Source: Bryopsis sp. KO-2023
Taxonomy: Eukaryota > Chlorophyta > Ulvophyceae > Bryopsidales > Bryopsidaceae
Length of the DNA: 64,000 nucleotides
Direction: 5' to 3'
NCBI GenBank assembly: GCA_030272585.1
Contig: BSYQ01000008.1
Span: forward strand, 4,588,001 to 4,652,000
Below, in pieces: positions 1 to 28,965 of the stretch (position 1 is its first letter; each line of letters begins with the position of its first letter). The notes below the pieces were generated by a model. It was not told the origin of the DNA and searched no databases. It worked only from the letters and a program-made list of their open reading frames with translations. The position numbers and the translations under genes are program-made.

Positions 1-1810
1 AGCGTCCCCGTCTCCGCGAACCTCCGCTTCATCGCCTTCACCTCGTCCACCCACGCTACCTCGGTCGTGTACCACTCGTCGTTCGGGACGAGGGTGGCGC
101 GCAGGTGGACGGTGTCCTGTATTTTCTCGGTGCGGGTGGCGTTTTCAGTCTCGAGGGCGTCGATTCGCTTTTTATGCTGCTTGATGTTGCGCCTGCTATC
201 CTGCACCCTACAGCCCCGCACACACCGGGGTTAGAACCGCACACACACACACGAACCCCGCACACACACAACACCCCGCACACAGATAAAACCCCCACAG
301 CCCCGCACAAACGCGTATACACCCCGCACAGAACAGGAAAAGGGCGCTTACCTGTCGACCACTCGTTGGCAGAGCGTGCGGTACCCGATGACGAATCCCA
401 TGCGGCCCCCAACCACGCCTTCTTGATTCTGGGCGTGGAAGAGGATTCTGAAGATCGCCGCCCCCATCATATCAATAAGGCGCGGGCGAGTGGTTGGCGA
501 GACCACATTTCCTCCGACCTGCCCACCACGCACACACAATGATTAACCCCGCACACACTAACATTACCCCCTCCCCAACACCCAAACACCGCACACACAC
601 ACAACAACCCCCCGCACACACACAACAGAACCCCGCACACACGTACTGCAACCCCGCACAGCTTATAGTTCTCTGTTTTTTACTCACCGTTATCCCGTCA
701 GGCATATTTTGCCTTGACGCGAGCATCCTCATCGGGTTGCGGAGCGTCGGAACGATTTCCTGAGCCCAGTATTGGTTGATCAGCTGTTATACAAACACAC
801 ATGAGGAAAAAAGTTAATTAACCAACCAGTACCCCCGCACGAAGGTCGTGGAGCCCCGCACAGACGTTACTTAGCAAAACATTTGAGGAAGGGGTGCATA
901 TAATTTTGTGCACCGCACCTGACCTTGAGGACCCCGCACAGGACTTGCCTTACCTTGTTTAGCCACCCAAACTCTTTTTCGTTCTTGTAGCGGCGCCTGG
1001 TTTTCCCGTCCTTCACCACCTTCACTATGAGCCTCGTGTCGAGTCTGCCCGTGATGCTCTCTGCCTGGGTACTCTTGATAGATGGCAAACGAGCAGGCGT
1101 GGGAGTCGCCATAGCGACGAGCATCTCCTTCGCCGCCTCGACGACAGCCTGTACACCGCACAAAGGCGTTACCACCCCGCACCACAATGTTTCAACCACG
1201 CACAGAGACACAAAAAACATAAAACACGCAACACCGCACAGAAGCACAACAGCACCGCAGATGAGAACATCCACCCCGCACACTCACCATATCGATGGGC
1301 TCTACCACTGCATAGCCAATGGATTCCACCACGTGCAGGTAGCTCTCCATATTTTGGATGGTGGAAACGAGGGCTTCGTCGATGACATTGAATATGGGCT
1401 TGTTTATCGTCTTCGTCGACCAGAAGTGTATTTTTCTGCCTGTGAAAGTCTGAAAAAAAAGACAACATAGAATTTAGAGACAACCCCGCACACGGTCCCT
1501 GTGGCCCCGCACAAATCGAGAAGGAATTCCTCATACCCCCGCACAACAATCCGTGAAGCCCGCACGGAGATATGGACACCCCGCACAAAAACCCTGTACC
1601 CCGCACAGCGTAAAACGTTTACCACACAGATCACAAGTTGTTAAACCGAGCCGCCTTTGCGAATAACAGTCGTCTTCGTGGAACCAGATTTTTTCCTCAC
1701 CGCAATAAGAGCCGACGCCGTAAAAGGCCTCAGTTCGCCGTACTCCTCGAGGATCTCGCGCTCCCTGCCCTCGTTGTCGCCAGTCATTTTGTTAAGCACT
1801 TCCTCAAGTG
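1..1810 (-). CDS. Intron-rich gene of unknown family, 3' end beyond window
   Basis: Six exons read right to left, all with GT-AG borders and agreeing phases: about 1647-1810, 1288-1449, 954-1148, 688-783, 352-518 and 1-207 (continuing out of the window). The first junction uses a weak gtttaa donor, and the true start is not found; a further small upstream exon near 1888-1920 is possible. Readable pieces include RKIHFWSTKTINKPIFNVID, an Ala/Glu-rich helix in exon 3, a Gly-rich segment in exon 5 and a Lys/Glu coiled-coil-like stretch in the last exon. I do not recognise the family. Its introns are only about 140-200 nt and carry repeated TGTGCGGGG on the sense strand. It is divergent from, and within 250 bp of, a Tnp2-type transposase, so it may be the accessory gene of the same element, but a host gene cannot be excluded. 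Confidence 0.5.
208..1646 (-). repeat. Intronic TGTGCGGGG motif cluster, left block
   Basis: About 20 copies of CCCGCAC (plus strand) were counted by eye between 200 and 1610, nearly all in introns 208-351, 519-687, 784-953, 1149-1287 and 1450-1646 of the minus-strand gene. The usual unit is TGTGCGGGGT in the sense direction, separated by irregular 5-40 nt spacers and often extended by CA dinucleotides. The exons between them hold almost none. Confidence 0.85.
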
Positions 1811-2047
1811 CTCCGATCTCGTTAAGGGTAAGCACAAGAAAGAAAACAATCATTTTTGCAAAACGATAGAAAGGTAGACCGCACACACCGAGTTCACCAG
1901 GGTTCTCGAGCTCGATTGCCCCGCATGAAGCGCCAGGGGTGGGTTACATTATTTATAAACTAATTAGTGTGACTTGCGTAATGTGGACTGCTTTAGTTTC
2001 TGTCCCATTCCGTCTCACCTGTTGTTTCCTTGCCGTTAGCGTTAAAG

Positions 2048-2522
2048 ATGCCCAAGCGCGTGGGCTACACCGCCTTGAAGAGATACCTGCAAACTGAAGA
2101 CCCCTGCTGCCCAGCATGTGGACAGCGAATCGGCAGCGACACTTCCTGGAAGAGACATAAGCGCGACGGTGGAACTTGCCCGAACAAGGATCGCCTTGAA
2201 AGGGAGCTGCTCGAGATCGCTGCAGGTAAGTCATAACCTTGGAAATATGTTTTTTTCGCTTCCTTTCCACACCTGACGCGCGTGCGGTGTCCCGACAGCG
2301 CGTGACGGCGGCACAGACCCGGCACAGAACCAGGTGGACCCCGCACAGAACACGGTGGACCCCACAGGAACATCCGTGGTGCCCGTACAGATTGCGGTGG
2401 ACCCCGCAGGACCATCCGTGGTGCACGCACAGGATGGGGATGCGCCTCTTTTCGAAGACGGCTTTGCTGATGACATTCCTGATGATTTTGCTGATGAACA
2501 TGTTGAGGAGGGGGATGAAGAG

Positions 2523-2557
<35 letters not shown>

Positions 2558-2558
2558 G

Positions 2559-2638
<80 letters not shown>

Positions 2639-5600
2639 GGAGGACGAGGAGGAGGAGTTTGACGTACAGGGAAACGCCGCCCTCAGGCAGCCCCTGTACG
2701 CCACATGCAGCATGTCCCTGGTCCAGGTACGTGTGCGACGCATTGTGACTTCTGTGCGGGGTTGATTGACAGCCCCGCACAGAGAACCTGGGACCCCTTC
2801 ACAGGCAACCAGAAACCCCGCACAGAAGTCATTTTACCTTTTTCCCTTCTCATTGCTCTTCTAACCCTTCTAACCTTCTGTTTCAGGTGATGTTGGTCCT
2901 TTGGCATTTGAAAGTCCAATCGGGGATGACACGGGAGACATTCGAGACCCTGCTGAGGTTGATGGCCGCGGTACTTCCGAAGCCCAACTCCTTACCGACG
3001 ACTTTCGCATCGTTCAAGGGGATGATGAAGGTGCGCCACCTGAAGAAGCAGACTTACCTGATGTGTCAGAAGGGTTGCCGAGCCTACAAGGAGAACAGGT
3101 GAGAGGATACTCTGTGCGGCGTGAAAGCATCCCTGTGCGGGGTAATATGGTCCCTGTGCGGGGTCAAGCTGGAAAAGTAGTCAAATGTGTTTGTGGGCTA
3201 GGAGTCCTCTGTGCGGGGTAAACGAAGCCCTGTGCGGGGTATATTGGTTGTTGTGCCGGGTCAGGCTGCAGCAGGAAAATAACAAAGAAAAAAAGGATAA
3301 AAAAGTGAACCCACAGAGTTCAGAGCGTAAGGGGACTCGAACCCACCACCAACTAAGCTGCAGTCATGCATTCTAACAACGCGGACCAGGCGAACACGAT
3401 ATCTTTCAATCTAAACGCTCCCTAATCCCCTTTAGCGTTATAACTTATGGGATAAGTCACAAACACTCAGCACACACACAAATTGTGCTCTGGGGGAATC
3501 GAACCCTCGACCACACCGCCTAAGGTTATTCACCTTATCGGTGGAGCACCCTAAGCCACGATACTTCACCGATGTTAAGTTATTTTGTAACACTGTTTAA
3601 TTTTAATTTTACGGAATTGCTAAAAGATTAAGGCATATGATTGCAACACCCAAGATTCTAACGCGTTCTGCTTGGCTTAGTGCTTAGCGTAGTATGTCTT
3701 GACACCGTGTGGGACGGTGTTCGAATCCTACTCTGTTCCCTTGGGTTTGGTTTTGTCTTCGTACATGAGATGTGTGGAACCCGTTTTAACCTGTTTTAAC
3801 CCACACTAAACCATCGTGGTGCGGTGGCTTAGAGTATTAGAGTGTATGGTTATAGTCTTAGAGGTTGTATGTTCGAATCTTAATAGGTTCTCACGAGTTT
3901 AGGGTTAGAATTGTGTGCCATTGCAACGGTTTTCCGTGATCTGATCGGGGATCGGAACAGTCGGTCTCCGGTGTCGGATCCCTAGTATGGAAAGAGTTGC
4001 CATATTGAATTCTTTGTTGTTCTTAATCGATGTTACTCTTCAGGACCACCGCCACTCCCCAGAGCGTTTGCGAGTGTGGCCTTCCTTTGTTCCATCTCTC
4101 CGGGACCGTCCTCACGCCGGTGAGAAGGATCTTCTACTTCGGCGTGAAGTCCGTCCTTCGCATCATGCATGGTAGCTATGCATTTTGCGAGGCGAGGATT
4201 CACGCCGCGATGAGATCCTTCTCGGTGAAGTCCACCCCTGTCATGCAGATATTGGGAGATTTGCTTCCCGACGGGGTGGATCTTCAGGATATCACCACCG
4301 GCCTCTATGAGGTCGGTGGTGATTATTTCGGCCTGGGGACAGGGAGGCGCCGCAATTACTCGATCGGCGCCTTCTTTATCAGATGTGGTGAGCTGATATA
4401 TATGTATATATTGGTTGTTTCTCGTTCCTATTGAGGTGATTGATGTGAAAAAACAATGGTGTACTGAAAGTTTTAACGTGTGTTCGAATTTTTTCAGACG
4501 ACCTCCATGACTCCGTCCGGATGCAGGTGGAGAACCACTACCCCATTGCCCTCATCCCCGGTCCAAAGGAGCCCGAGAGCTTACAGGGAGTCCTGCGGTT
4601 GATTGTGCAGGACTTCCTGAAGCTCATACCTGGTGGGCCGGGGATGAGGTTGAGGGGATGGTCGCCCCCCGCCACCGGATCCGTTGGACCCTTGACGCGT
4701 TCTGACAGTGTGGAGCACTGGGCGTTGCTGTCCAGTGTGACCGGTGATACTCCTTGGCTTGCGAAAGTCGAGTTAGCACGCGGTCACACTGGACGCAACG
4801 CCTGTCCTGACTGTCATGGGACTACGAGCGTCGTCACCACTCGCTCCGGGGTCACTACTCACAGGTGTGAAGATACGTGATGTTGATCCAGTTGCCTTGG
4901 TGAACCTGATACACAGTTACGTGGAAACTGACGTGTTCGTCATTCATGTAGGTACATGGGGTATCTTGCGCCAACCAGGCGTTCCGAGGAGGACATGAGC
5001 GAGCTTCTGACACTCCGGCCGGGGCAGGTGTGTCCTTGTTGTCCTTGTTTTTATTATTGTTTTTGCGACTTCTTCGTTATTCTCTCTTCTTTGCATAAAG
5101 TGATCTCATGTTTTTTTTTAAGTCAGGAATTTCTCGGTAATTTGATCCTATTTGGTGTTTTTATAGGACCCCAACTGGACGCCCATCGATCGTGACACGC
5201 ACAGGACACGTGAGGAGTATCTGCACTTTGCAGCGCTCGCGGACACGCCTGCCTTGGATCCCGTCGCTGCGCATGTCCGCGGACGATCGGTTCTCCACGA
5301 CCTTCCGTACTTCGCACCGGAAGTACTGAAGGTCGTGGGGGCCTCTCATTTGATGCTCTTTGGCCTCGTCAAAGACTTCTTATACGAGGTATGTGTGTTT
5401 CTCTTGCTTATGTTTGATATATATTATGAATGCAAAAGGCTATTAATTGTGTTGTTGAAACCACAGTTTTTATAGAGTAAAGTTGTTCCCCACTCACTTC
5501 CTAAATACACAAACTCAAACTCGACTAACATCCCTCAGCGGAGCGGCGCTTTGACTTGCGCGATCCACATGTGTGACTAAACCGCCCCATCCGATCCCAA

Positions 5601-7418
5601 TGGGTTTTACAGTGTGTATCGATAGTAACATATGTGTGATTGCCAAGATCCGGAGCCGTCTCCTTGGAGCTTCGCGGCGTGCAGACCTTGCCCAGTACCG
5701 GAGGGCACTTGCCGGCGTCCGACTCCCGACAGACTTTGGGGGTCTGGTGATCGACATCTGTGCTGACAGGAAACAGCACACGATGTACGATTACGCGTTG
5801 CTGGTTCGGTGAGTTAATTCTTCAATAAGAAAGCAAAATGTGTCTGAAACGAAACAGGAATACCAAAGGTCTCACTTTCATGTACGCTGTACGTGTAGGA
5901 GTTATGGGGCTTTCGTGTTCCATTCCTGCCTGCATAGAGACGAGTTCGTGGCGTGGGACCAGCTCTGCACTGCCGCCACCCACTATACCTCCCACCGAGC
6001 CATGGCTGGAGCTACCATGGATGACTGCATCGAGAGAGGCCGTGTGATTCGGGACACGATGTACCAGTATGCTCGGTGAGCGACGTTGTGCGGGTGAAAA
6101 CATTGGCGATTTCGTTTACTGTCATGAGGTTTTCCTTGTTCTTTCGATTGCGACAATACAAAGGCGACGATTATTCAGTGAACAATATTCACGTCTTAAT
6201 TTTCACGTTTACAGGAACGTCCAAACCCTTTTTGGGGCGGGGATGTGTACCTTTAACCTGCACAAAATCATTTGTGTGGGTTATCGGCAAGAGAGCGTAC
6301 GTGGGGCGATTTCACGTTCGGGGGAGTCGTGGGTCGAGCGAGCGGTTGGACACATCAAGCGTGTTTCCGCGGGACGTGTCAAGAGATGTGCGGGAGAAAT
6401 GATTGCAAACGATGTTCTCTCCGACATGTGAGAACTACAGCCAAGTCTCCAACACTTTCGTATGCTCAAACTAAGAGAACCCAAGAAAAGCAGATAAACA
6501 TGTTTGTACTATTCCTTTCTTTATGTTTTCAAAGTGTTGAACGATTCGATTTGTGGTTTTAAAGGGCGTTGAGGGCAAACGCAAACATGCTTTCGCAAGA
6601 CGAGCAAAGTGTGGTGGACGCTATCATTACTCCCCCGCCGAGGAAGCCGTTGGACACCATCACCACCCTGGAGTACACGTTTTCCTTCCTCCCTCGACCT
6701 GTATCGGCATCGGACATTCGGACATTCGTGGACGCCATTCGGGAGGCGATTAGGACGTACGTGATTCCGCAGAAGCTTGTTGAGTTATAATTGATTGATT
6801 CCAAACGGGACGATGCACTAAGCTACCATTGATGTGTTCGTAGGTGGGGCTTCTCTCTTCCGGGGTGGACGGTGGGCGACCTGCTGCCATACGCCATCCA
6901 CCGGACTTTCCGGGTCACTCGAGACACGATCCAGGGACGCGAGGAGTTTTTTGCGACTGGGTGGTCCTCCACGGAGCGAGGTATTAACCTTAAACCGTGT
7001 TGCACACTCAAATTTTGGTAAAGGGAATCTCCCCAAGAGTGGTATATTACCTGCTACGAGCTATTGTTTTAAAATGTTGTGTTTTCCAGGTGACGACTCG
7101 ACGTGTCTTTACGTCGAGTACGAGGACGACGAGGGCAGGAAGACGATGTACGGGGGACACGTCCGTGCCTTGTACACTGTCCGGGATGCTGGGTTCGGAC
7201 GGTGTCCCCCTCGGGTCGTTGCGATGGTGGACCTGTACCAGCTCGTCTACGTGGATGCTCGATTCAGGCAGGGTCGTCCGGTCAGGCTCACGAACTTGTT
7301 CAAGACGAGGGGGAGAAAGCTTGAGGGTTATCCGGTGCTCTTGGAGGACGCCTTGTCGAAGCTGATGTGTTTGAGGGAGGGCCAGTCGAGATATTATTGT
7401 TTTTACACAGGGGTTTGA
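2048..7418 (+). CDS. Tnp2-type (CACTA/EnSpm-like) transposase, 13 exons
   Basis: Cut-and-paste transposase of a DNA transposon. Exons: 2048-2225, 2299-2726, 2887-3098, 4044-4387, 4498-4864, 4952-5027, 5167-5388, 5648-5808, 5938-6075, 6215-6427, 6565-6756, 6844-6980, 7090-7418. They sum to 2,997 nt (998 aa plus stop) with every phase matching. The N-terminus has a Cys/His finger (CCPACG...H...C), then a long poly-Glu tract (exon 2). Exon 3 has the family block with ETFETLLRLM and LPKPNSLPTTF. A Cys pair (VCECG) follows, then PIALIPGPKEP, the GHTGRNACPDCH block, LHDLPYF with MLFGLVKDFL, and MCTFNLHKI, which match the order of Tnp2 proteins as I know them. I did not locate element termini or the catalytic acidic triad with certainty. 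With no disabling change seen it may be active or recently active. The start is the first ATG in frame with the finger. Confidence 0.75.
2515..2660 (+). repeat. GAG/GAA microsatellite coding poly-Glu
   Basis: Almost uninterrupted purine trinucleotide repeat inside transposase exon 2. It encodes about 45 acidic residues in frame. The opposite strand shows a spurious poly-Ser frame. Confidence 0.9.
2747..2830. repeat. 17-bp perfect inverted repeat in transposase intron 2
   Basis: GACTTCTGTGCGGGGTT at 2747-2763 is the exact reverse complement of 2814-2830, with a 50-nt spacer. The repeat sits wholly inside intron 2727-2886. A second, shorter pair (TGTGCGGGG and CCCCGCACA) is nested in its left half. 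Confidence 0.9.
3099..3265 (+). repeat. TGTGCGGGG motif block at the start of transposase intron 3
   Basis: About six copies of TGTGCGGGGT or close variants directly after the donor at 3099, in the sense direction of the transposase. Later transposase introns lack the motif. Confidence 0.8.
3318..3392 (-). repeat. tRNA-like module 1
   Basis: On the minus strand a Pol III B-box match (GGGTTCGAGTCCCC) lies downstream of an A-box-like CCTGGTCCGCGTTGTTAGA. It does not fold into a clean cloverleaf by eye, so a tRNA-derived repeat is more likely than a working tRNA gene. Confidence 0.45.
3485..3560 (-). repeat. tRNA-like module 2
   Basis: The minus strand reads TGGCTTAGGGTG (A-box-like), then a TAAGGT...ACCTTA hairpin, then a GGGTTCGATTCCCCC T-arm and B box. 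Partial pairing of GTGCTC with GAGCAC resembles an acceptor stem. Spacing is wrong for a standard tRNA, hence a tRNA-derived element. Confidence 0.5.
3670..3745 (+). repeat. tRNA-like module 3
   Basis: TGGCTTAGTGCTTAG (A-box-like) is followed about 45 nt later by GGTGTTCGAATCC (B-box-like). It has the opposite orientation to modules 1 and 2. No complete cloverleaf seen. Confidence 0.45.
3818..3890 (+). repeat. tRNA-like module 4
   Basis: GGTGGCTTAGAGTATTAG followed by TATGTTCGAATCTT, the same A-box/B-box layout as module 3, but with a weaker B box. Confidence 0.4.
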
Positions 7419-8141
7419 TGTTGGGTGTTTCGTTCTTTCTTTATTTTCATTTTCGTCGTTTTTTGTGTTATAATCCGACGGCCGTAACATTTTGTCTATG
7501 TTCTTCAACATAACGATCACGAAGCTACACTTGAAGCCAACACTCAGATAAACTTAAAGTCGCAAGTCATCGATGAAGCCAATTAGTAAGGAGATCAACC
7601 ACGAAGAAGAAACAAATATGGAACATTATCGGACTCAAGTGACCCGAGTTCAAACCCCACTCCTCCCACTTAACGACCCACAATACCCATGGAAAAATCC
7701 CTCTTCCCCAAGCCCCGCTTCACGAAAACTGGGCGTCCCTTCATTGTCGTCAACTCCATGCAGACGTCAAATCCGGCCGTCACATCATTCGACGTCGTCA
7801 GACATGCGCATTTTGACACGTGACTAAGGTTTTCAAACTTTTTCTGTTCGCCACAATCGGGTAAGCGAAGTCTTCTGGAAGAGCGCCACGCTGGGGTCGG
7901 CGGAAAGGTATTGTTCCACTGTTTCAGGTATGGATCGCAGCCACCAGAATCTCTCCCGAACACGAGAACTCGACGACAGGGCCCATCACTTCTTGACACC
8001 TCACATCGTCGGTTTCTTATGATGGCCGTTGAAAGGTACACAATTGAAAGTGGACTTCGTGTGACAAGTGGTTTTATGGTGCTTCCAGGGGAGGTCACAG
8101 TCGGAAGGGAATCGGAAGCTGAATGCAGTTGGGTGCACCGA
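7419..8141. other. Gap after the transposase, no supported gene
   Basis: Only overlapping short frames on both strands with no splice-consistent model. No transposon terminal repeat could be matched to one upstream of 2048. Confidence 0.5.
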
Positions 8142-8278
8142 GCAGCACATTTGAACAGGAGAAGAAAAAGATAAAGTCGATGGAGGAGGAGTTTAAACAG
8201 GGAAGGAGGAGGAGGGATGCGGAGATGGCCGAAATGGAAACGCAAGTGCGACTGGCCAAGTACAAATCCAAGCTGAGG
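8142..8278 (+). CDS. Candidate orphan coiled-coil exon
   Basis: An acceptor (gaatgcag) precedes an open stretch reading LGAPSSTFEQEKKKIKSMEE and continuing as a Lys/Glu/Arg-rich helix, ending at an AG|GTGCGAG donor in phase 2. No partner exon was found on either side, so gene membership is unknown; it might be an upstream piece of the helicase remnant that follows. Confidence 0.3.
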
Positions 8279-8527
8279 TGCGAGCCGCCGTCGAACCGCC
8301 GTCGAACTGGTTCCCCCAGATTGATCACCTTCAAATATCCAGAGGCTGTAAGCCACTCCAAATAAAAATTATATATATATAGACCTGGTTAGCTTTGCCT
8401 CCCTGTGTCTGTGTTGCAACAGTTGAACTTGAGGGTTAAGTCTGTTCTGTTTTTTGCATTACAGACACCACAATAAAAGGAGAGAGAAGTCCACCCCTCG
8501 AGTTTCCGACCCCCCTGATGAAAGTGT

Positions 8528-9022
8528 TTTCCAGTGCAAAACACCAAATTGTGGACCAGGTATAATCTGTGGAGAAACGATACTCAGGAGGAAGTCGAAG
8601 GTGGGAAATTCAATCAGCAACGTCTCTGCCATTGGGCTGACTTGGACAGTCCCCAAAAAAACATCAAATGTGTTAAAAAACCCCCCCAAAAAAATGCCCT
8701 GATGTGTTACAGGGAATTATGCTATGATGTGTTACAGGGAATTATGCTGTGGGTGCATCAGGAAATGCTGGGAGTTTCTACCTTGGGGGGATGGCTAGGA
8801 ATATCTATGATTCGTGCATCATGAATTTTTGGTAATTTTTCTCGCAGGCTTAGGAAGGAGGATGACAGAGATTTTTCCAGTGCAAAACACCAAATTGTGG
8901 ACCAGGTATAATCTGTGGAGAAACGATACTCAGGAGGAAGTCGAAGGTGGGGAATTCAATGAGCAATATCTCTGCCATGGGGTCGACATGGACAGTCCCC
9001 AAAAAAATATCAAATATCTCAT
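8528..9022. repeat. Duplicated ~140-bp block, copies 350 bp apart
   Basis: The block at about 8528-8671 recurs at about 8877-9022 with few differences, starting TTTTCCAGTGCAAAACACCA and ending in CAGTCCCCAAAAAAA. Each copy could encode the same short peptide AKHQIVDQ before a GT donor, so a duplicated exon is possible. Confidence 0.75.
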
Positions 9023-9892
9023 CAGGGCTCATTGGACTCTGCATGTCTAAGGGCAGATATTTCAGAATAACAGGTTCGACATACCATTAGTAATCAAATA
9101 TGTATTTTCATTCCCTATTTCTCGGTGTTGTTTTTTCCAGATTTTGTTTTGTTCGCTGACGAAAGAGCAAAGGGAACTGTACAGAGCTTACATTCATTCC
9201 AAAGATGTGATCGAAATAATCAACAAAAAGAGGCATGCACTGGCGGGAATCGACGTCATGAGGAAAATATGCAATCACCCCGATTTGCTGGACTTGGCAA
9301 AATCAGAAATCTCGGAAGACTACGGGGATCCGGAGAGAAGCGGAAAAATGACCATCATGGCGAAAGTGCTCAAACACTGGAAAGAAGAGGTGAATTTATA
9401 AAAAGATGGGTTTGCCAAGAAGCCTGTTGTCTGCCTATGTGTGTTGAGCATGATATTTTGACCACATATTTCACAGCTGCAACGTTTTTTTCCCCTCGTT
9501 CGAAAGGGGATGAGAAAAAAAGGGTATTTTTCGATTTCTCCTGAAGTTGCATTAATTTTTTTTTATCTTCTAGCCGGGATTATATTTTGAGGATGGGTGC
9601 ATCTGGTGTTTGTTTAAGCAGGGGCACAAGGTGTTGCTCTTCAGTGAAACTCAACAGATGCTGGATATTTTTGAAAAATTTGCTCAGAAGGAAGGCTATG
9701 TTTACCACAGAATGGATGGCTCCACCAGCATTGGAATAAGAGGCACCTTGATGGACGATTTCAACGAAAACCCAGACATATTCTTATTTTTATTAACGAC
9801 CAAGGTAGGGGGAAACCCACTACCTCATTGGACTCATACCTCATTGCCCTGATGTGTTACAGGGAATTATGCTGTGGGTGCATCAGCAAGAT
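8698..9892. repeat. Dispersed short repeat TGATGTGTTACAGGGAATTA
   Basis: Found twice in tandem at 8698-8750 and again at about 9850-9890; the second tandem copy and the distant one share the continuation TGCTGTGGGTGCATCAG. The copies flank the helicase remnant exons. Confidence 0.8.
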
Positions 9893-10060
9893 GCATCTCA
9901 TATGACAGGAACCTTTTTTTGCAGTAATGGAAGAGGCAAAAAAGAAAAAATGTTGAGTTGGCTTTTAGTTATCTTCAAATAATTGATTTTTTCCAACCCT
10001 TGGACGCAGGAAATGTACAAAATTCGCATGATACAGTACACAGGGCTAATCAGCTCATGG
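9141..10060 (+). pseudogene. CSB: CSB/RAD26-type SNF2 helicase remnant
   Basis: Two clean exons survive: 9141-9389 (83 codons; CSLTKEQRELYRAYI, then ICNHPDLL) and 9619-9804 (62 codons; HKVLLFSETQQMLDIF, YHRMDGSTS, FLLTTKVGG). Phases agree. They match the middle of the C-terminal helicase lobe of the transcription-coupled repair ATPase CSB/ERCC6. The following motifs (the DPDWNPS-type block and the arginine-finger RAWRIGQ block) are missing. A possible last exon near 10012 reads EMYKIRMIQY, like the segment after motif VI. The DEAH half upstream is also absent. I infer a decayed or partial copy; a complete gene likely lies elsewhere. Short repeats on both sides may mark the rearrangement. Confidence 0.7.
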
Positions 10061-10585
10061 GTCCATGGGAGGGGGGATGTATTCTTTTGTTCGTAAAGAT
10101 GAGGTACAGTGGAGATTATTCGAGGATTGAAAAGACCAATCCCGGCAGAAAAAGGAAGATGGAGGTGTGTTAGAATGGGCAGCCTGCCCACCCCATGAAA
10201 AGGGAAGCTGGAATAGGGTGATTTCCGCCCCCCCTTTTTTCCACTATGGTGCAACATGCTTCTTTTGTTTCTGGTATCATACGTGCGCATTGGCTGAAAA
10301 AACAATTAAAAAATGGTTAGAAGTGGGTCAGATGGGTATTTATATGTTGAACGAGCTCTGTATTATTGAAATACAAGCGCAGGGTTGGAATGGCAGGATC
10401 AGAGTTCATGGTTCTGGGCTATTTTTTTGGTTTCTATTTCTGTTTTGGAATAAGTGGGAATGAACAAGTGTTCTATCATAAAATGGGGTGTACATTTCAA
10501 AAGGGGTTTTGTCATTGTTGTTTTATTGTAACAACCATTTTGTCACCATAAATCTGCACAAATGTGTTTCTACAATCACTAAGCA
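10061..10585. other. Gap with no supported gene
   Basis: AT-rich spacer between the helicase remnant and the repeat block; nothing recognisable seen. Confidence 0.5.
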
Positions 10586-11660
10586 TATACACAGTGGAAC
10601 CCCGCACAGCGACCCCGCACACGAACGAAAAAACCCCGCACAGCCACCCCGCACACTGCTGTAACAACCACCCCGCACACTCATGAGAGGAGCCCGCACA
10701 GGGCTATAACAAACACCCCGCACACACACATAAGGAGCCCGCACAGGGCTATAACAAACACCCCGCACACACACATAAGGAGCCCGCACAGTCACCCCGC
10801 ACACACATGGGAGGAGCCCGCACAGGGCTATAACAATCACCCCGCACACACACATAAGGAGCCCGCACAGTCACCCCGCACACACATGGGAGGAGCCCGC
10901 ACACTCACCCCGCACAGTCACCCCGCACAGTTATGCGGGGGCCTGGACCTCGTGTGCGGGGTGGTCCATGATTCGCACAGACGACTGAAACCCGTGCACA
11001 GAAATAACAAAAACCCGCACGGCTCTGTTCCCCGGTTTGGCCGGTTTTTGTGCGGGGTCCCAATTTGACCCCGCACAGACTGGAACCCCGCAAACGATTT
11101 TCGAGGTCACCCCGCACACACACACATGGAGCCCGCACAGTTACCCCGCACACACTTGAAAGGAGCCCGCACACTCACCCTGCACAGTCACCCCGCACAG
11201 TTCTGCGGGGGCCCGGACCCCGTGTGCGGGGTGGTCCATGATTCGCACAGACGACTGAAACCCGTGCACAGAGAAAACAAAAACCCGCACAGCTCTGTTC
11301 CCCGGTTTGGCCGGTTTTTGTGCGGGGTCCCAATTTGACCCCGCACAGATTGGAAGCCCGCACACAGAACCTGACGTCTATCATATCCACCCCGCACGGC
11401 ACCCCCGCACGGAGGATAGGGTACCCCGCACACTGTACGGGGCTATGTTCTATCTGTGCGGGGTCCCACAACGGGGAAGACGTCAGGTTCTGTGTGCGGG
11501 GTTCCAATCTGTGCGGGGTCAAATTGGGACCCCGCACAAAAACCGGCCAAACCGGGGAACAGAGCCGTGCGGGGCTATTCTGGCCCAGTGCGGGGCAAAA
11601 CACGGGTTTCAGAGTTCTGTACGGGGTTTCAAAAACACCCCGCACAGAACGCGACTTCCC
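10586..11660. repeat. Dense CCCCGCACA block with nested direct and inverted copies
   Basis: Dozens of CCCCGCACA/TGTGCGGGG units fill this block. Three small near-identical subunits (AGGAGCCCGCACAGGGCTAT type) repeat at 10690-10840. A larger ~150-bp segment at about 10931-11090 recurs at about 11212-11360. The second copy is then mirrored at 11479-11575. The block ends only about 5 nt before the first readable exon of coiled-coil gene A. Confidence 0.9.
11282..11575. repeat. 97-bp inverted repeat (foldback)
   Basis: Arms 11282-11378 and 11479-11575 are reverse complements with only about three mismatches, separated by about 100 bp. Each arm holds an inner palindrome, TGTGCGGGGTC and GACCCCGCACA around CCAATTT. 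Confidence 0.85.
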
Positions 11661-11664
11661 ATAG

Positions 11665-14600
11665 TGATTAACGCCCTGGGCGGCCTTGTGTGGGACGCCT
11701 ACAACGGATCGAACGACCTGCTCGATCTGCAGATGGTTTCGACGGCAGAAGTGGAGCAAGCCAGGGAAAGGATCCGTCTTTTGGAGGGGGAGCTTGCGGA
11801 GATCAAGGAGGAGAGAATAGGTGTTCTGGAGTTGGAGCTGGAGCGCGAGAGGATCGATAGTGAGTGTTTAGCCTGAACTGTGGTCGGGACAGAAACTGCT
11901 CCGTGCCACCAAAGTCGACTTTTCCTTTCCTTTTCCATCGTTTTTACTTTTTTTTTGCGTGATCCATACCAGGCGCCGGAATCAAAGAGGCCAACCGAGC
12001 GTTGAAGGATCAGATGGCCGCGCTGAAGGAAAGTTTGAACCGGAAAGCGCTGAGCCTTGTGGAGAAGGCCGACGAGGTAACGGTGCCGAGACAGCTCGAG
12101 TGGAAATTGAGTGAAAACAGCACCAATTAATCAATCAATGAATTTATGAATGGGGATCCAACTGTGCTGACCAGTTTTTTTTTTCTTCTTCTTTAGCTCT
12201 TGGCTCAGAAGGCTCAACTGGAAGAGGAAAAGTCTAAGCTCGACTCTGAAAAAAATCAAGTGGAATCAATGAAGGTGGAGTTGGCTGCAAAATCAGCCGA
12301 GAAAGTGGAGGCTCGAATCAACAATCTGATGGTAAGTTTTTAAAACATCTAGGCTTTGATTCTTTTGTGTGTGTGAACAGTGCTTTCTTAATTTGATGTG
12401 GTTGAATTTTAAATCAATAATCTGCCGACTACCCATTTAAGTGGACCAAATAACTAAAAGAAAGTGATCCTCATCATGCACTCAGTAATCCAACAAATGG
12501 AGCACTGAAATTCATCCACATCCAAAAATTCAATAAATAAACAGGAGTCACCCAGTTTGAAATCAGCCCAGGCCTACCTTCTGTTTGGTTTTTCTCTGTG
12601 CCCCTGAAAAAGGGGGGAATGAAACAAGAAAAGAATCCAATCATGGTAACCTGGACTGATCAGAATGTTTTGCTTTGATGCTCCAGAACGAACTTGGGGT
12701 GCCAAAGGCTGATGGACAGACCTCCGAGATTGTCGGTGAGGTTTCTGAGGTGGAGCACCAGCCTGGATATTGGAAAGAACTTGAAAAAAGGTGGTCCGAT
12801 GTCCTCAACGGTGCCATGCTCCAGGAGGAAATGCAAAAACTGCAAGAAGAGTCAGAAAAAATCAAAAAGGATGCTGCTGAGAGGTATCCAACTCTGACCA
12901 ATCTATCGAAATCCCTCTTTTTCAAGCTTGAACTGATCATACTTTGATCTTGGCTGGGTCTGTTGTTCTGCCACCGAAGTATGGATCATCATCTTTTGTG
13001 TGCTTTCTTTTCTTTTATTGGATATTGCACCACCAATAATCACCCAATGTGGAAATTTTTTAATTGATTGTGTTCTTTTATCTCAAGAAAAATTAATTAT
13101 GAATTATTTTTTGCAATATTATGATCTTTGCCCTACCAAATTCGAGGCTTTTTTCCAGTTGGTTTTGTGTACGTCGATTCCTGGCTTAAGCCAACCCGTA
13201 TTTTACCCCTCAAAAATCCAGCAGCTTCTTTCTGTACAATAGTCATATTTTTGCTGAATGATCGATCGCGTGCAATTTGATTGGTGAGTAGGAAGGAGGA
13301 GCATCAAGCAGAGCTGCAAAAGCTTGAAGGAATTGCAAAGGAATGGGTCGAATTTTCGCTGCCCAGCAACGCTGATTTGGAGGCCAAGATGTTGGCTGTT
13401 GAGGTCTCGGTGGAAGAGGCAATGAAAAAAATCAACCTTGCTGTGAACAGCAATTCTTCTGTCACTCAGGGGATTCCGATCTCCTCCATCAAAATGCCAA
13501 AGCTGGAGGTCAGTATCTCTGAATGAAGGATCTGATTACCACATGATAATTATTGCTTCTGTTTATTTAACCTCTGTGTAGAAAATTTTAAACCTGTTTT
13601 CCCTTCAAGCTCTGTGTTGCTAAATTGGAATGGTGCCGTTTCTGGAGGTGGGGCTTTCCTCTCTCAGAAATCTGGCTTGGTAGTAGTCATCATTGAATTT
13701 CGATTTCTTGGATTCCAGGTGAATCTTGACGACCTGAAGGATGTGGTTTCAACTTTCGATCATGCAATGGAGGATGGTGCAGCGCATGTCAATGAAGGGA
13801 ATTTTGGAATGATCAGCATGCTGGAGCGAAACATCAAGGAGTTGTCCGACAAGCAGAAGGTCGGTTGTTGGCTGCATAAATAAACAAGGCAATTTCCTGT
13901 GTGACATTTTTTTTGTACCCGCTTCTATGTTCAACTGACAAGTATGGATGTGTCTTGATGGTGTTTTCTTTTTTTTTGGTGTGTTTTCACCCATTATTCC
14001 TTTTTTTTGTATCAGGATTTTGAATTCCAGACCCAAGAGCTGAAAGAGATGGTCAAGGAAAGGGAGCAACTGCTAGAAACTGAGGAGAAGGAGCTGGATC
14101 AGATGGAAAAAAACCATGAGTCCATGGAGAAGGAGTTCAAAAATATTCTGGAAGCTCGAGGGAAGGAGTTGATTCTCAAATGGGAGCAGGCCAAGGAAAT
14201 GCAAGAAGAGAGTTTTGCAGACCAGCCCCCCAAAATGGACAGTCAGCCAGTGGTAAGTACAAATGAAAAGAAAAGAACATTTCATAGACCCTTCCCACTG
14301 GTGTAGTGCTTGAAAAGAGTGAGATGCAAGGCAAACTCAACATTTATCTGCTTGGTGAATAAAAGCTCAGGGTTCTTTTCTTTTGGGGGGGGGGGGGGGT
14401 GAAGTTCAGTGTGGAGGGTTTAGGCAATATTTTTTGCTGGAGATTGCAAGTACCATGTTTAAAACGGACTGAGCTATACATTAGAGACCCTCATTTATTT
14501 TCATTTATTTAAACAGTTTGGGAACTGGACAATTAGTGAGTATTTTTTCACTACAGAAATTTGACTTCATTTCGCAAATTTTTTGATGTAATTCTTCTTT

Positions 14601-21092: not shown

Positions 21093-22815
21093 GGAGTCGT
21101 AAGTACAACCAAACAGAAATATAGAATCCTTTCTTTGCAACCTTTGTGATCCCAACCTTTGTAATTTTCTCCCTCCTGAAATTTTATATCAGAGAAAAGA
21201 ACCTCTTGAGATGGATTCTCAATTTTTTCCAGAATCATTCTTCCCCTGCCCCCCCCCCCCTCCCCCCCGAAAAAAAAGAAAAAGTATTTGGTGGATATTA
21301 TATCCCATAAGTCAGTGAATGTTATTGTGTTGTGAAAATGAAGCTAGAAGAGGGGGCAGGGTGGTTATTATGGGTGCATTGATCCAGGTTTGAAAAATGA
21401 TATGGAAAGATATGATTGTGTTGTCTTTTTTCGTTTTTTTTTCCAGGGAATCAAGAAACCATAAGCAGAAGTTTGTGTGATCCGTACACAAGAAACCCAA
21501 CAAAGTACCGGTTTGGATTGGACAGTGGTGTCTCAATGGAGGGTACTGGATAGCAACTGGCTTGGATTCAAAAGAAGAAGACATGGTGCAGCCCATTGAA
21601 CAGAACAATTTTTTGTGCATCAAAGAGAGGGATGGGGTCAAGGAGAGTGCAGGAATTTTCCAGACAGGTGCTAACCACCTTTTGGAACGAAGCCTCGACT
21701 CCAGTGATGGTGAGATGTACCTGGAGGAAGAGCAAGCAGCCTGGGTTCAAAATTTCTGGTGGGGAATTTTCTGGCCAAAACATTGTTCTGCAGGTGGTAC
21801 AAAAAAAAGTCATCCATGAAAACTGAATCAAATGGTTGGCGAACATACAAAAAAAAAGGTGGATAAAAACATCAAGGAGGACAAGAAATCAAAAGGAGGT
21901 GTGGAAAAGCAAAAAAAGAGTGGCGGAAAATCGGAACACAGTGTTAGGCAAATCAAAAAAGAGTGGCGGGAAATTAAAAAAAAGAGTAGAGGAGAATTGA
22001 AACAGAGTGGAGGAATACCAAGAAAGAGTGGCAGGAAACCAAGAAAGAGTGGTGGGAAACTAAAAAAAAAAAGAGTGGGGGAAAATCAAAAGAAAAAAAG
22101 ATATATCAGGTGGTGTGAAACAGTAGCACTCTGATTGGATGGATCAACAAGAGTATGGAAATGAAGTGGAATGCAATGGTGCAGCAAGCAAACAGGGGGG
22201 AGAAAAAACCAGGAACTATGTCAAGGCTGGAGATTCAATACTGAACTCTGCTGAATGGAGAGTGGCACCTTTTTTTTTTTTTAATCCTTATTCCAAAAAT
22301 GGGAGGGCAAGTTTTAAGGGGGTTGGGGAGCATTCCTATAGGAAAATTTATTAAACAAAAAAAACTAAATATTCTGGGGGTAAATCTGACTTGAAAATTG
22401 AGGGGTAGGAAAAAGAAAGCAGAAAAAAAAAAAGAGGGGGGGAGGGTTTAAAAAATGAGTAAGAGAATTCATGCATAGACACATGGATGGCGCAAATCTA
22501 TTTGAGAGTTGGAGGTATAGAGGAATAATGAGGAGTGTCACTCTATGGGTTTTTTGTAAGGAATTCCTGCTCGCACAAGCGGGTTTTTTGTCATGGGATG
22601 AGGGAATCAAGATTTTCAGATCGAGAATCATTGACCATCGAAGAATAATGCAATCAAGTGCAGCCTCAATGATGAACCGTCTGTGAACTAAATTTGCATT
22701 GAGATGTGAAGGCGTTCCAATGCCCCAAATCCTTTTAGAATTTTGAGCGGGTTGTTGGGGCTTGGATACGCGTCCGGAATGATACAGTGCATACAGAAAA
22801 TGTCGCCCAATGTCA
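21093..22815. other. 3' part of tandem unit 1
   Basis: Non-coding tail with a pyrimidine run at 21248-21267 and an array of GAGTGG(C/T)GGGAAA-like units with A-runs at about 21890-22090. The array recurs, rearranged, at about 27960-28190 in unit 2. Confidence 0.5.
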
Positions 22816-27146: not shown

Positions 27147-28965
27147 GGAGTCGTAAGTACAGCCAAACAGAAATATAGAATCCTTTCTTTGCAACATTTG
27201 TGATCCCAACCTTTGTAATTTTCTCCCTCCTGAAATTTTATATCAGAGAGGAAACATACTCTTGAGATGGAATCCCATTATTTTCCAGAATCATTCTTCC
27301 CCTGCACCCCCCCCCTCCCTCCCCCCCCGAAAAAAAAGAAAAAGTATTTGGTGGATATTATATCCCATAAGTCAGTGGATGTTATTGTGTTGTGAAAATG
27401 AAGCTAGAAGAGGGGGCAGGGTGGTTATTATCGGTGCATTGATCCAGGTTTGAAAAATGATATGGAAAGATATGATTGTGTTGTCTTTTTTCGTATTTTT
27501 TTTTCCAGGGGTCAATCAAGAAACCATAAGCAGAAGTTTGTGTGATCCGTACACAAGAAACCCAACAAAGTACCGATTTGGATTGGACAGTGGTGTCTCA
27601 ATGGAGGGTATTGGATAGCAACTGGCTTGGCTGGGTGTAATGGAGGAAGACATGGTGCAGCTCATTGGACAGGACAATTTTTTGTGCATCAAAGAGAGGG
27701 ATAGAGTCAAAGAGAGTGGAGGAGTTTTCCAGAAAACCAGGTGCTAACCACCTTTTGGAACGAAGCCTCGACTCCAGTGATGCTGAGGTGGACCTGGAGG
27801 AAAAAGTAAGCAGCCTGGGTTCAAAATTTCTGGTGGGGAATTTTCTGGCCAAAACATTGTTCTGCAGGTGGTACAAAAAAAAGTCATCCATGAAAACTGA
27901 ATCAAAAGGTTGGCGAACATACAAAAAAAAAAGGTGGATAAAAACATCGGGGAATGATAAAAGAAGAAATCAAAAGGAGGGGTGGAAAAGCAAAAAAGAG
28001 TGGCGGATAATCAAAACAGAGAGTGGCGGAAAATCGAAACACAGTGGTAGGAAAACAAAAAAAAGAGTGGCGGGAAATCAAAAAAAAGTAGAGGATAATC
28101 AAAGCAGAGTGGAGGAAAATCAAGAAAGAGTGGTAGGAAATCAAGAAAGACTGGTGGGAAATTAAAAAAAAAAGAGTGGGGGAAAATCAGAAGAAAAAAA
28201 GATATATCAGGTGGTGTGAAACAATAGCACTCTGATGGGATGCCTAATGGAAATGGAAATGAAATGGAATGGTGCAATAAGCAACCAGGGTAAAAAAAAA
28301 TCAGAAAGTATGTCAAGGCTGGAGATTGATTTTGAACGGCCGGGTAGCCATAAAATTAAAAAGAATCCTTATTCCAAAAAGGGGAGGGCAAGTTTCAAAG
28401 GGGAGGGGGGGAGCATTCCTATGGGAAATTTATTAAACAAAAAAAGTGAATATTCTTGGGGCAAATCTGACTTGAAAAAATTAGGGGTGAAAAAAGAGAG
28501 CAAAAAAAAAAAAGAGGGGGTAAATCTGAGTTAAAAATTGGGGTGAAAAAAGAGAGAAAAAAAAAAAAAGAGGGGGGAAATCTGAGTTTAAAATTGGGGG
28601 TGAAAAAAGAAAGCAAAAAAAAAAAAAAAGGGGGGGGGAGGGTTTTAAAAAATGAGTAAGAGATTTCATGCACAGACACGTGGTTGGCGCAAATCTATTT
28701 TGAGAGTTGGAGGTGGGTATCAAGGGATAATGAGGGGTGCCACTCTGTGGGGTTTTGTAAGGAAATTCTGCTCGCACACGCGTTTTTTTTGTCATGGGAT
28801 AAGGGAATCAAGATTTTCAAATCGAGAATCATCGACCATCAAAAAATAATGCAATCAAGTGCAGCCTCAATGAACCGTATGTGAACGAAATTTGCATTGG
28901 AATATGAAGGCAAAAGCCTTCAGAATTTTGAGCACGTTATTGGAGCTTAGTTACACATCCAGAAT
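27147..28965. other. 3' part of tandem unit 2
   Basis: A-rich spacer with threefold AAAAAGAGGGGG-type repeats at about 28480-28640 that are expanded relative to unit 1. No gene seen. Confidence 0.5.

Follow-up and report, generated by a model that had tools for sequence, protein, structure and literature searches.

Plant CACTA transposons carry subterminal repeats that are bound by the protein TNPA, and in soybean the repeat motifs are specific to subfamilies, according to the available portions of the reports (PMC2613891, PMC4219821). These repeats occupy several hundred nucleotides in plants, as given in the accessible text of one account (PMC8978399), and another, also available in part, describes the capture of host gene pieces by soybean CACTA elements (PMC1947982). 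In the green alga Bryopsis sp. KO-2023, a 64,000-nt stretch of contig BSYQ01000008.1 (the whole of which is called the window below) contains part of an element rich in a short G-rich motif, TGTGCGGGG. This motif is very probably the predicted subterminal binding-site repeat of a family of CACTA-type cut-and-paste DNA transposons in this photosynthetic alga. While CACTA subterminal repeats are already known, what is new here is a strand rule in introns and exons where the array overlies both genes of the element.

The exact motif TGTGCGGGG occurs 52 times in the window against 0.33 expected, a number reached by 0 of 100 shuffled sequences. Twenty-five of these copies lie at 208-3265, where an earlier note on this DNA had described the motif, and 27 lie in a second cluster at 10600-11646 that the note missed. 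Across the genome (91 Mb in 28 contigs were searched), 3270 copies were counted (1477 and 1793 on the two strands) against 314 for a reversed control pattern, which suggests that about 300 of them are background. Among 100 genomic places listed, many fell into tight clusters with recurring spacing and others were isolated and background-like; the clustered places were the first sign of a mobile element. A search for a tandem 18-mer pattern found nothing, and the matches listed by a literature search with the motif string look unrelated by title.

The borders of the element were located by similarity searches of the genome, in which other stretches bear L-numbers and L040 is the left-neighbouring stretch. 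With the right cluster as query, most copies have best matches whose end falls at positions 1077-1082 of the query, near window position 11666. With the left cluster, 14 long matches start at its first base, and the element therefore continues leftward. Its left end, CACTATGGGAAAACCCGCTCTGTGCGGGG, is found at L040:8071 (contig C8:4586071), 1.9 kb outside the window, which gives a total length of 13,596 bp. The motif adjoins both CACTATGGGAA inverted repeats and fills both subterminal regions. The sequence CACTATGGGAA occurs 277 times in the genome, compared with 14 for its control, often in facing pairs, and stands at both ends of the window element, of L031 and of L035-L036. The latter two, fetched in full, measure 3,991 bp and 13,660 bp and have 3-bp target duplications of CAC and TTT, respectively. 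Ten further pairs were chosen by the CACTATGGGAA pattern itself, and 8 of them have a perfect 3-bp duplication (10 of 13 elements overall). Elements with unrelated interiors carry TGTGCGGGG at both ends, and among the copies listed that share this left part, end-to-end lengths range from about 12 to 32 kb; the cargo therefore differs between copies. The parts of the element are as follows.

1 to 11666, no strand assigned: the part of the CACTA-type transposon inside the window, delimited by inverted repeats at both ends, its length and copies elsewhere that share the right border.
208 to 3265, both strands: left subterminal array, the part in the window, with 25 exact motifs; 14 more lie in L040 up to the left end.
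10600 to 11646, both strands: right subterminal array with 27 exact motifs, 7 on the plus and 20 on the minus strand.
11638 to 11666, minus strand: right terminal inverted repeat, CACTATGGGAAGTCGCGTTCTGTGCGGGG, whose end is the end of the element.
7419 to 10599, no strand assigned: cargo without the motif, including a RAD26/ERCC6-like gene fragment.

The element and its relatives thus show features of the CACTA superfamily: inverted repeats that start with CACTA, 3-bp target duplications and subterminal arrays of short repeats in both orientations. It is called CACTA-type here, with no family named, because the termini and duplications agree with this superfamily and the transposase match is weak. 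Some observations speak against the assignment. The window element itself is flanked by TTA on one side and ATT on the other, with no matching target duplication, and may be rearranged. Its proposed transposase gene, tnp, gave no Pfam transposase match, either as the whole protein or with the exon-5 segment of four family members; the Pfam matches come only from a Glu-rich stretch and from weak zinc-ribbon-like hits. A four-member profile of tnp exon 5 does align collinearly with a Transposase_21-positive protein of the same genome at 23% identity, and the score of 26.2 exceeds those of 100 of 100 shuffles (best 19.6), but the alignment is weak (E 0.00095, probability 22%) and is the sole such link. 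A genome search with Transposase_21 found only one other locus. Exon 5 is conserved in relatives elsewhere in the genome, and in exon 1 a Cys/His pattern gives weak zinc-finger matches that fall below the cut-off (best E 0.0035).

The second gene, orfM, diverges from tnp. Its product is a candidate DNA-binding partner, with no Pfam match. The splicing of both genes was inferred from reading frames, splice sites and conservation. The introns proposed in the earlier note are supported in this way, as the plus-strand gene is open over 13 exons and the minus-strand gene over 8, all joined across GT..AG introns. Since tnp is a probable transposase gene, the introns at 2727-2886 and from 3099 belong to a probable transposase.

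2048 to 7418, plus strand: tnp, probable transposase gene of 13 exons and 1011 amino acids, with an open frame over GT..AG introns and relatives in the genome.
2048-2225, 2299-2726, 2887-3098, 4044-4387, 4498-4864, 4952-5027 and 5167-5388, plus strand: tnp exons 1 to 7, from the frame.
5648-5808, 5899-6075, 6215-6427, 6565-6756, 6844-6980 and 7090-7418, plus strand: the remaining tnp exons, from the frame.
1 to 1853 and beyond the left edge, minus strand: orfM, with 8 exons and 513 amino acids and a homologue of equal exon number in L048.
1853-1647, 1449-1288, 1148-954, 783-688, 518-352 and 192 to beyond the edge, minus strand: orfM exons 1 to 6; exons 7 and 8 are in L040.
193-351, 519-687, 784-953, 1149-1287 and 1450-1646, minus strand: orfM introns 5 to 1, with all motifs sense.
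2727 to 2886, plus strand: tnp intron 2, with 1 sense and 2 antisense motifs.
3099 to 4043, plus strand: tnp intron 3, with 4 sense motifs followed by two tRNA-like B boxes on the minus strand.
2316 to 2432, plus strand: exonic antisense repeat with a 21-bp period, coding for D-P-A-Q units.

The left array is about 5 kb long and overlies the 5' half of tnp and the whole of orfM. Outside exons, the exact motif reaches 6.8 copies per kb in left non-coding DNA, 18.1 in orfM introns, 5.9 in tnp introns 1-3 and 25.3 in the right end; in exons, the values are 1.3 for orfM, 1.2 for tnp exons 1-3 and 0 for tnp exons 4-13. It is also absent from tnp introns 4-12 (0 in 1157 bp, with one copy of the looser core GTGCGG) and from the cargo (0 in 3181 bp). 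Density is thus set by nearness to the element ends, not by introns. The earlier note had taken the motif to be mainly intronic and had named equal use of both strands in introns, or equal density outside them, as grounds for giving up its reading. Many copies do lie in introns and their strands are unequal; however, the right end, where no gene was modelled, is denser than the orfM introns, nine introns of tnp lack the exact motif, and the non-intron DNA of the element is as rich in it as the introns are.

The direction of the motif follows that of the gene in introns, as the earlier note had observed, and this held both in the window element and in its diverged relatives. With the exact motif, introns of the window element contain 27 sense and 2 antisense copies and exons 0 and 3 (Fisher p 0.002). 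The orfM introns account for 22 sense and no antisense copies, with sense motifs only in 7 of 7 introns, and tnp introns 1-3 for 5 and 2. When the window element was aligned with three further copies (L043, L044 and L045; about 77-92% identical by stretch), the distinct intronic sites numbered 32 sense and 0 antisense in orfM and 10 and 2 in tnp. A more distant element, L048, has an orfM protein that is 38% identical and tnp segments that are 46-77% identical; its exact motifs are distributed 9/0 (sense/antisense) in orfM introns, 8/0 in tnp introns 1-3 and 0/1 in exons. By the core GTGCGG, the same element gives 33/1 in introns and 1/7 in exons (p 2e-6), and 21/0 in orfM introns alone. The decayed copy L074 has 4/0 exact motifs (L073 is a 96% copy of it) and L072 has 1/0, the exon borders of L046, L072, L074 and L075 having been read by eye. 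In L047, a 46% relative, no such motif was found and the commonest words belong to one tandem array.

The rule has exceptions, and these count against it. Both antisense intronic copies of the window element sit in tnp intron 2, which the earlier note had rightly singled out as carrying both directions. By the core, the window element has 3 exonic sense copies, of which 2 are in orfM exon 8 and 1 is in tnp exons 4-13; L048 has 1 sense copy in a tnp exon and 1 antisense copy in the introns.

The short introns, each rich in one repeat, had led the earlier note to propose an introner-like element that makes introns from the repeat, and introners can indeed carry inverted repeats and target duplications, according to the accessible part of one report (PMC9860276). 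On a comparison confined to the genes of the element itself, this origin has hardly any credibility here. In L048, despite the low identity of its orfM protein, orfM has 8 exons as in the window element, with borders that match by eye. The alignment of introns suggested by the earlier note recovered a shared motif without end-to-end similarity: within elements, introns have the motif in common and do not align throughout, and those of L048 align with the window element in short motif-rich stretches only. In addition, the moving unit is a multi-kb element, and elements that have target duplications but differ in their interiors all bear the motif at their ends.

A repeat may also spread by local tandem duplication alone, with each intron seeded once and the seed then expanded, so that orientation is inherited and meaningless. 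Some units do form tandem arrays according to a repeat finder. However, a single direction in every orfM intron of the window element, and again in those of L048, is not what such seeding would give, and among the sites that vary between the four aligned copies, sense still outnumbers antisense by 14 to 0 in orfM introns and by 4 to 1 in tnp introns. Spacers between neighbours resemble each other no more than those of random pairs do (0.34 vs 0.32 for 10 pairs, 0.38 vs 0.31 for 4, 0.31 vs 0.33 for 11 and 0.08 vs 0.37 for 1). Thus, tandem duplication as the only cause is improbable.

Some families have a different motif and keep the same strand rule. L075 has GTGCGAC, with 10 sense and 0 antisense copies in the orfM region (16/1 for TGCGAC). 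The motif of L046 is TGTGCGATG, which also adjoins its inverted repeat; in the region of tnp exons 1-4, TGCGATG occurs 6 times in sense (once, at 5975, at a doubtful exon border) and twice in antisense, both in exon 2. Neither motif contains a G-run. This bears on the suggestion of the earlier note that the motif has a role in RNA, for example as a G-run splicing enhancer; in that case splicing would be the reason for its retention in introns. Although GGGG does stand on the sense strand of introns, the motif is equally dense or denser outside them, the bodies of tnp introns 4-12 lack both GGGG and the exact motif, and elements whose interiors differ have the motif next to their inverted repeats. 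Its 21-bp phasing, described below, is a further point against such enhancers, which are very unlikely to be the reason for the motif. Both introner-like creation of introns and G-run enhancement were rejected as the main function. The persistence of the strand rule after loss of the G-run supports an explanation by tolerance of splicing and coding.

Exonic copies are mostly antisense and obey a further restriction. Four coding sequences were examined, namely orfM and tnp of the window element and, from L048, orfM together with tnp exons 1-3. In these, 9 of 9 full antisense units NCCGCACAG fall in one codon frame and read P-A-Q or A-A-Q, and CTGTGCGG is absent from all four. These repeats fall in low-complexity acidic segments. 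The exons of L046 contain four ATCGC units, which read D-I-A-H or D-I-A-D; three of these units are spaced at 21 bp, and one sense GCGAT lies at a doubtful border. The motif thus differs between families in the element end, the introns and the exons alike, and this favours a single recognized DNA sequence.

The spacing of the motif also points to DNA. Same-strand neighbours with the core GTGCGG were compared in L048 and in the leftmost 5.3 kb of the window element; of their 69 spacings of 9-110 bp, 42 deviate by no more than 1 bp from a multiple of 21 (18/29 and 24/40, respectively), where 1 in 7 would be expected (p 6e-19 if independent, though the units are not fully so). Genome-wide, 243 same-strand pairs of the motif lie 18-22 bp apart compared with 0 for the control; among 100 listed pairs, many of which are copies of one site, the distance is exactly 21 bp in 75, 18 in 18, 20 in 6 and 22 in 1. 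A spacing of two helical turns would fit side-by-side binding of protein on DNA. The weaker phasing in the right end (13/38) and in L031 (9/21) tells against this.

These observations suggest that the main function of the motif is most likely at the DNA level, as subterminal binding sites of a CACTA-type transposon, and that RNA-level constraint probably explains only the strand. A transposon-encoded protein, either the orfM product or the zinc-finger-like N-terminus of tnp, would bind the 21-bp-phased arrays at both ends; with neighbouring proteins aligned along the same face of the helix, the ends could then pair and be cut at CACTATGGGAA. Both the identity of the binding protein and the need of transposition for these sites are proposals from sequence comparison. 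Selection would retain sites as the transcripts tolerate them, i.e. sense TGTGCGGGG in introns and, in exons, antisense CCCCGCACA in the single frame that yields P/A-A-Q. If the sense copy is preceded by C, inversion of an intronic motif produces a terminal CACAG, which could serve as a 3' splice site. We hold with about even confidence that the strand rule arises from the need to remain compatible with splicing and coding.

Avoidance of cryptic splice acceptors is partly supported, and the evidence is mixed. Outside the motif, CAG and CTG occur 7 and 11 times in the orfM intron bodies of the window element and 2 and 11 times in those of L048, and 12/11 and 10/14 times in tnp introns 1-3. On the unfavourable side, the motif-free tnp introns 4-12 have 11 CAG and 6 CTG, so that CAG avoidance is not general, and only a fraction of 0.47 of the minus-strand motifs in the left part are preceded by C and would read CACAG when inverted. 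It is also possible that array polarity away from the divergent promoter mimics the intronic part of the rule. In that account, only the polarity of the DNA matters: sites must point away from the promoter, intron orientation follows position and exon orientation reflects what the protein tolerates. As orfM and tnp diverge from one point in both the window element and L048, the effects of gene direction cannot be told apart there from those of position; the lack of CAG avoidance in motif-free introns is in line with this account, as is the strand bias of the right end, where no gene was modelled. However, exonic copies oppose their intronic neighbours inside the same genes, tnp intron 2 has both directions, and the right-end bias may stem from a 270-bp tandem duplication that a repeat finder detected in that array. 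In L046, orfM is on the same strand as tnp, but its introns lack the exact motif, and this element therefore cannot separate gene direction from position. Polarity alone appears unlikely, if less so than the other alternatives. The fuller proposal is that sites follow a transcript-strand code, sense in introns and antisense in a single frame in exons, and that intronic and exonic copies change together when the site differs between families. Joint selection as protein-binding DNA, intron RNA and coding repeat would then allow two spliced genes to share their sequence with an array of about 5 kb. We advance it tentatively, with confidence a little short of even.

The cargo and other parts of the window and genome yielded further observations. 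Window 9141-9389 is an exon of a RAD26/ERCC6-like SNF2 gene (best PDB chain RAD26, 6e-24) and probably a captured host gene fragment. By eye, a cargo stretch is present twice in diverged form (8528-8675 and 8873-9015), beside a 25-bp tandem repeat at 8700-8748, as if gene pieces had been duplicated inside the element. In tnp exon 2, a 153-bp GAG repeat (2505-2657) codes for about 50 mostly Glu residues, and both L048 and L046 have Glu-rich stretches at the matching position. The GAG stretch also has twelve weak matches at C7:745326-799817; most of these are spaced by about 4.5 kb, which points to tandem repetition of a unit of that length.

A tRNA-like hairpin lies at L040:8176-8216, 106-146 bp inside the left end, and also in L044, L031, L036 and L046. 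Its T-arm/B-box, GGTTCGACTCC, begins at a distance of 114 or 126 bp from the left inverted repeat and is enclosed by an outer acceptor-like stem. Five elements, with left ends of three kinds, retain the hairpin; its stem shows one compensatory pair (C-G to U-A), and in L046 two of the pairs are broken. The hairpin may act as a Pol III/TFIIIC site or in recognition of the element end. The tRNA-like B boxes of tnp intron 3 are at 3331-3345 and 3491-3508 on the minus strand, and in L048 intron 3, at about 5050-5510, a T-arm-like sequence is repeated several times by eye. In the window, Rfam gave nothing at gathering score and ARAGORN no tRNA; Rfam matches below that score (microRNA, tmRNA and ycf2-UTR) were taken as chance or as the T-arm-like hairpin. 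An A-rich 21-bp unit (AAATCAAAAAAGAGTGGAGGA-like) forms two separate arrays, at 27967-28202 and 21903-22101; its sequence is not related to that of the GC-rich motif. The genome also gave 107 exon-wise matches to light-harvesting (LHC) proteins; one of them, in L070, resembles LHC proteins of the green lineage.

If the proposal is true, this array is a natural experiment in which one set of bases serves DNA recognition, splicing and protein coding at once, and a single genome supplies several families and motif variants to test it. It would also mean that intron-rich, strand-biased motifs may derive from transposon ends and not from splicing signals or intron-making repeats. The literature searched describes subterminal repeats and contains no report of such repeats running through the introns and exons of their own element with a fixed strand rule, within a limited coverage of subscription papers that leaves absence unproven.

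As far as the available text of the reports extends, the element resembles En/Spm of maize and Tgmt* and TgmR* of soybean in its CACTA ends, 3-bp duplication and subterminal direct and inverted repeats (PMC2613891, PMC4219821). It also shares with En/Spm and other plant CACTA elements motifs that differ between subfamilies, and may share a transposase accompanied by a second, little-conserved binding protein, for which orfM is the candidate here (PMC2613891, PMC4219821). Unlike En/Spm, its two genes are divergent and its transposase is not recognized by Transposase_21. SmTRC1 and other CACTA-related elements of animals and fungi are distant relatives of CACTA that, as predicted here, have spliced transposase transcripts; they differ in their 2-bp duplications and, in some, CCC-core ends, and subterminal repeats are unmentioned in the portion of text available (PMC1636069). 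Introners likewise place transposon-related sequence inside introns (PMC9860276, accessible in part), but they create introns at new sites in many genes, whereas here the introns of the element's own genes carry predicted binding-site repeats. In contrast to plant CACTA elements, the left array of this algal element extends over some 5 kb and runs through introns and exons of both genes under a strand rule.

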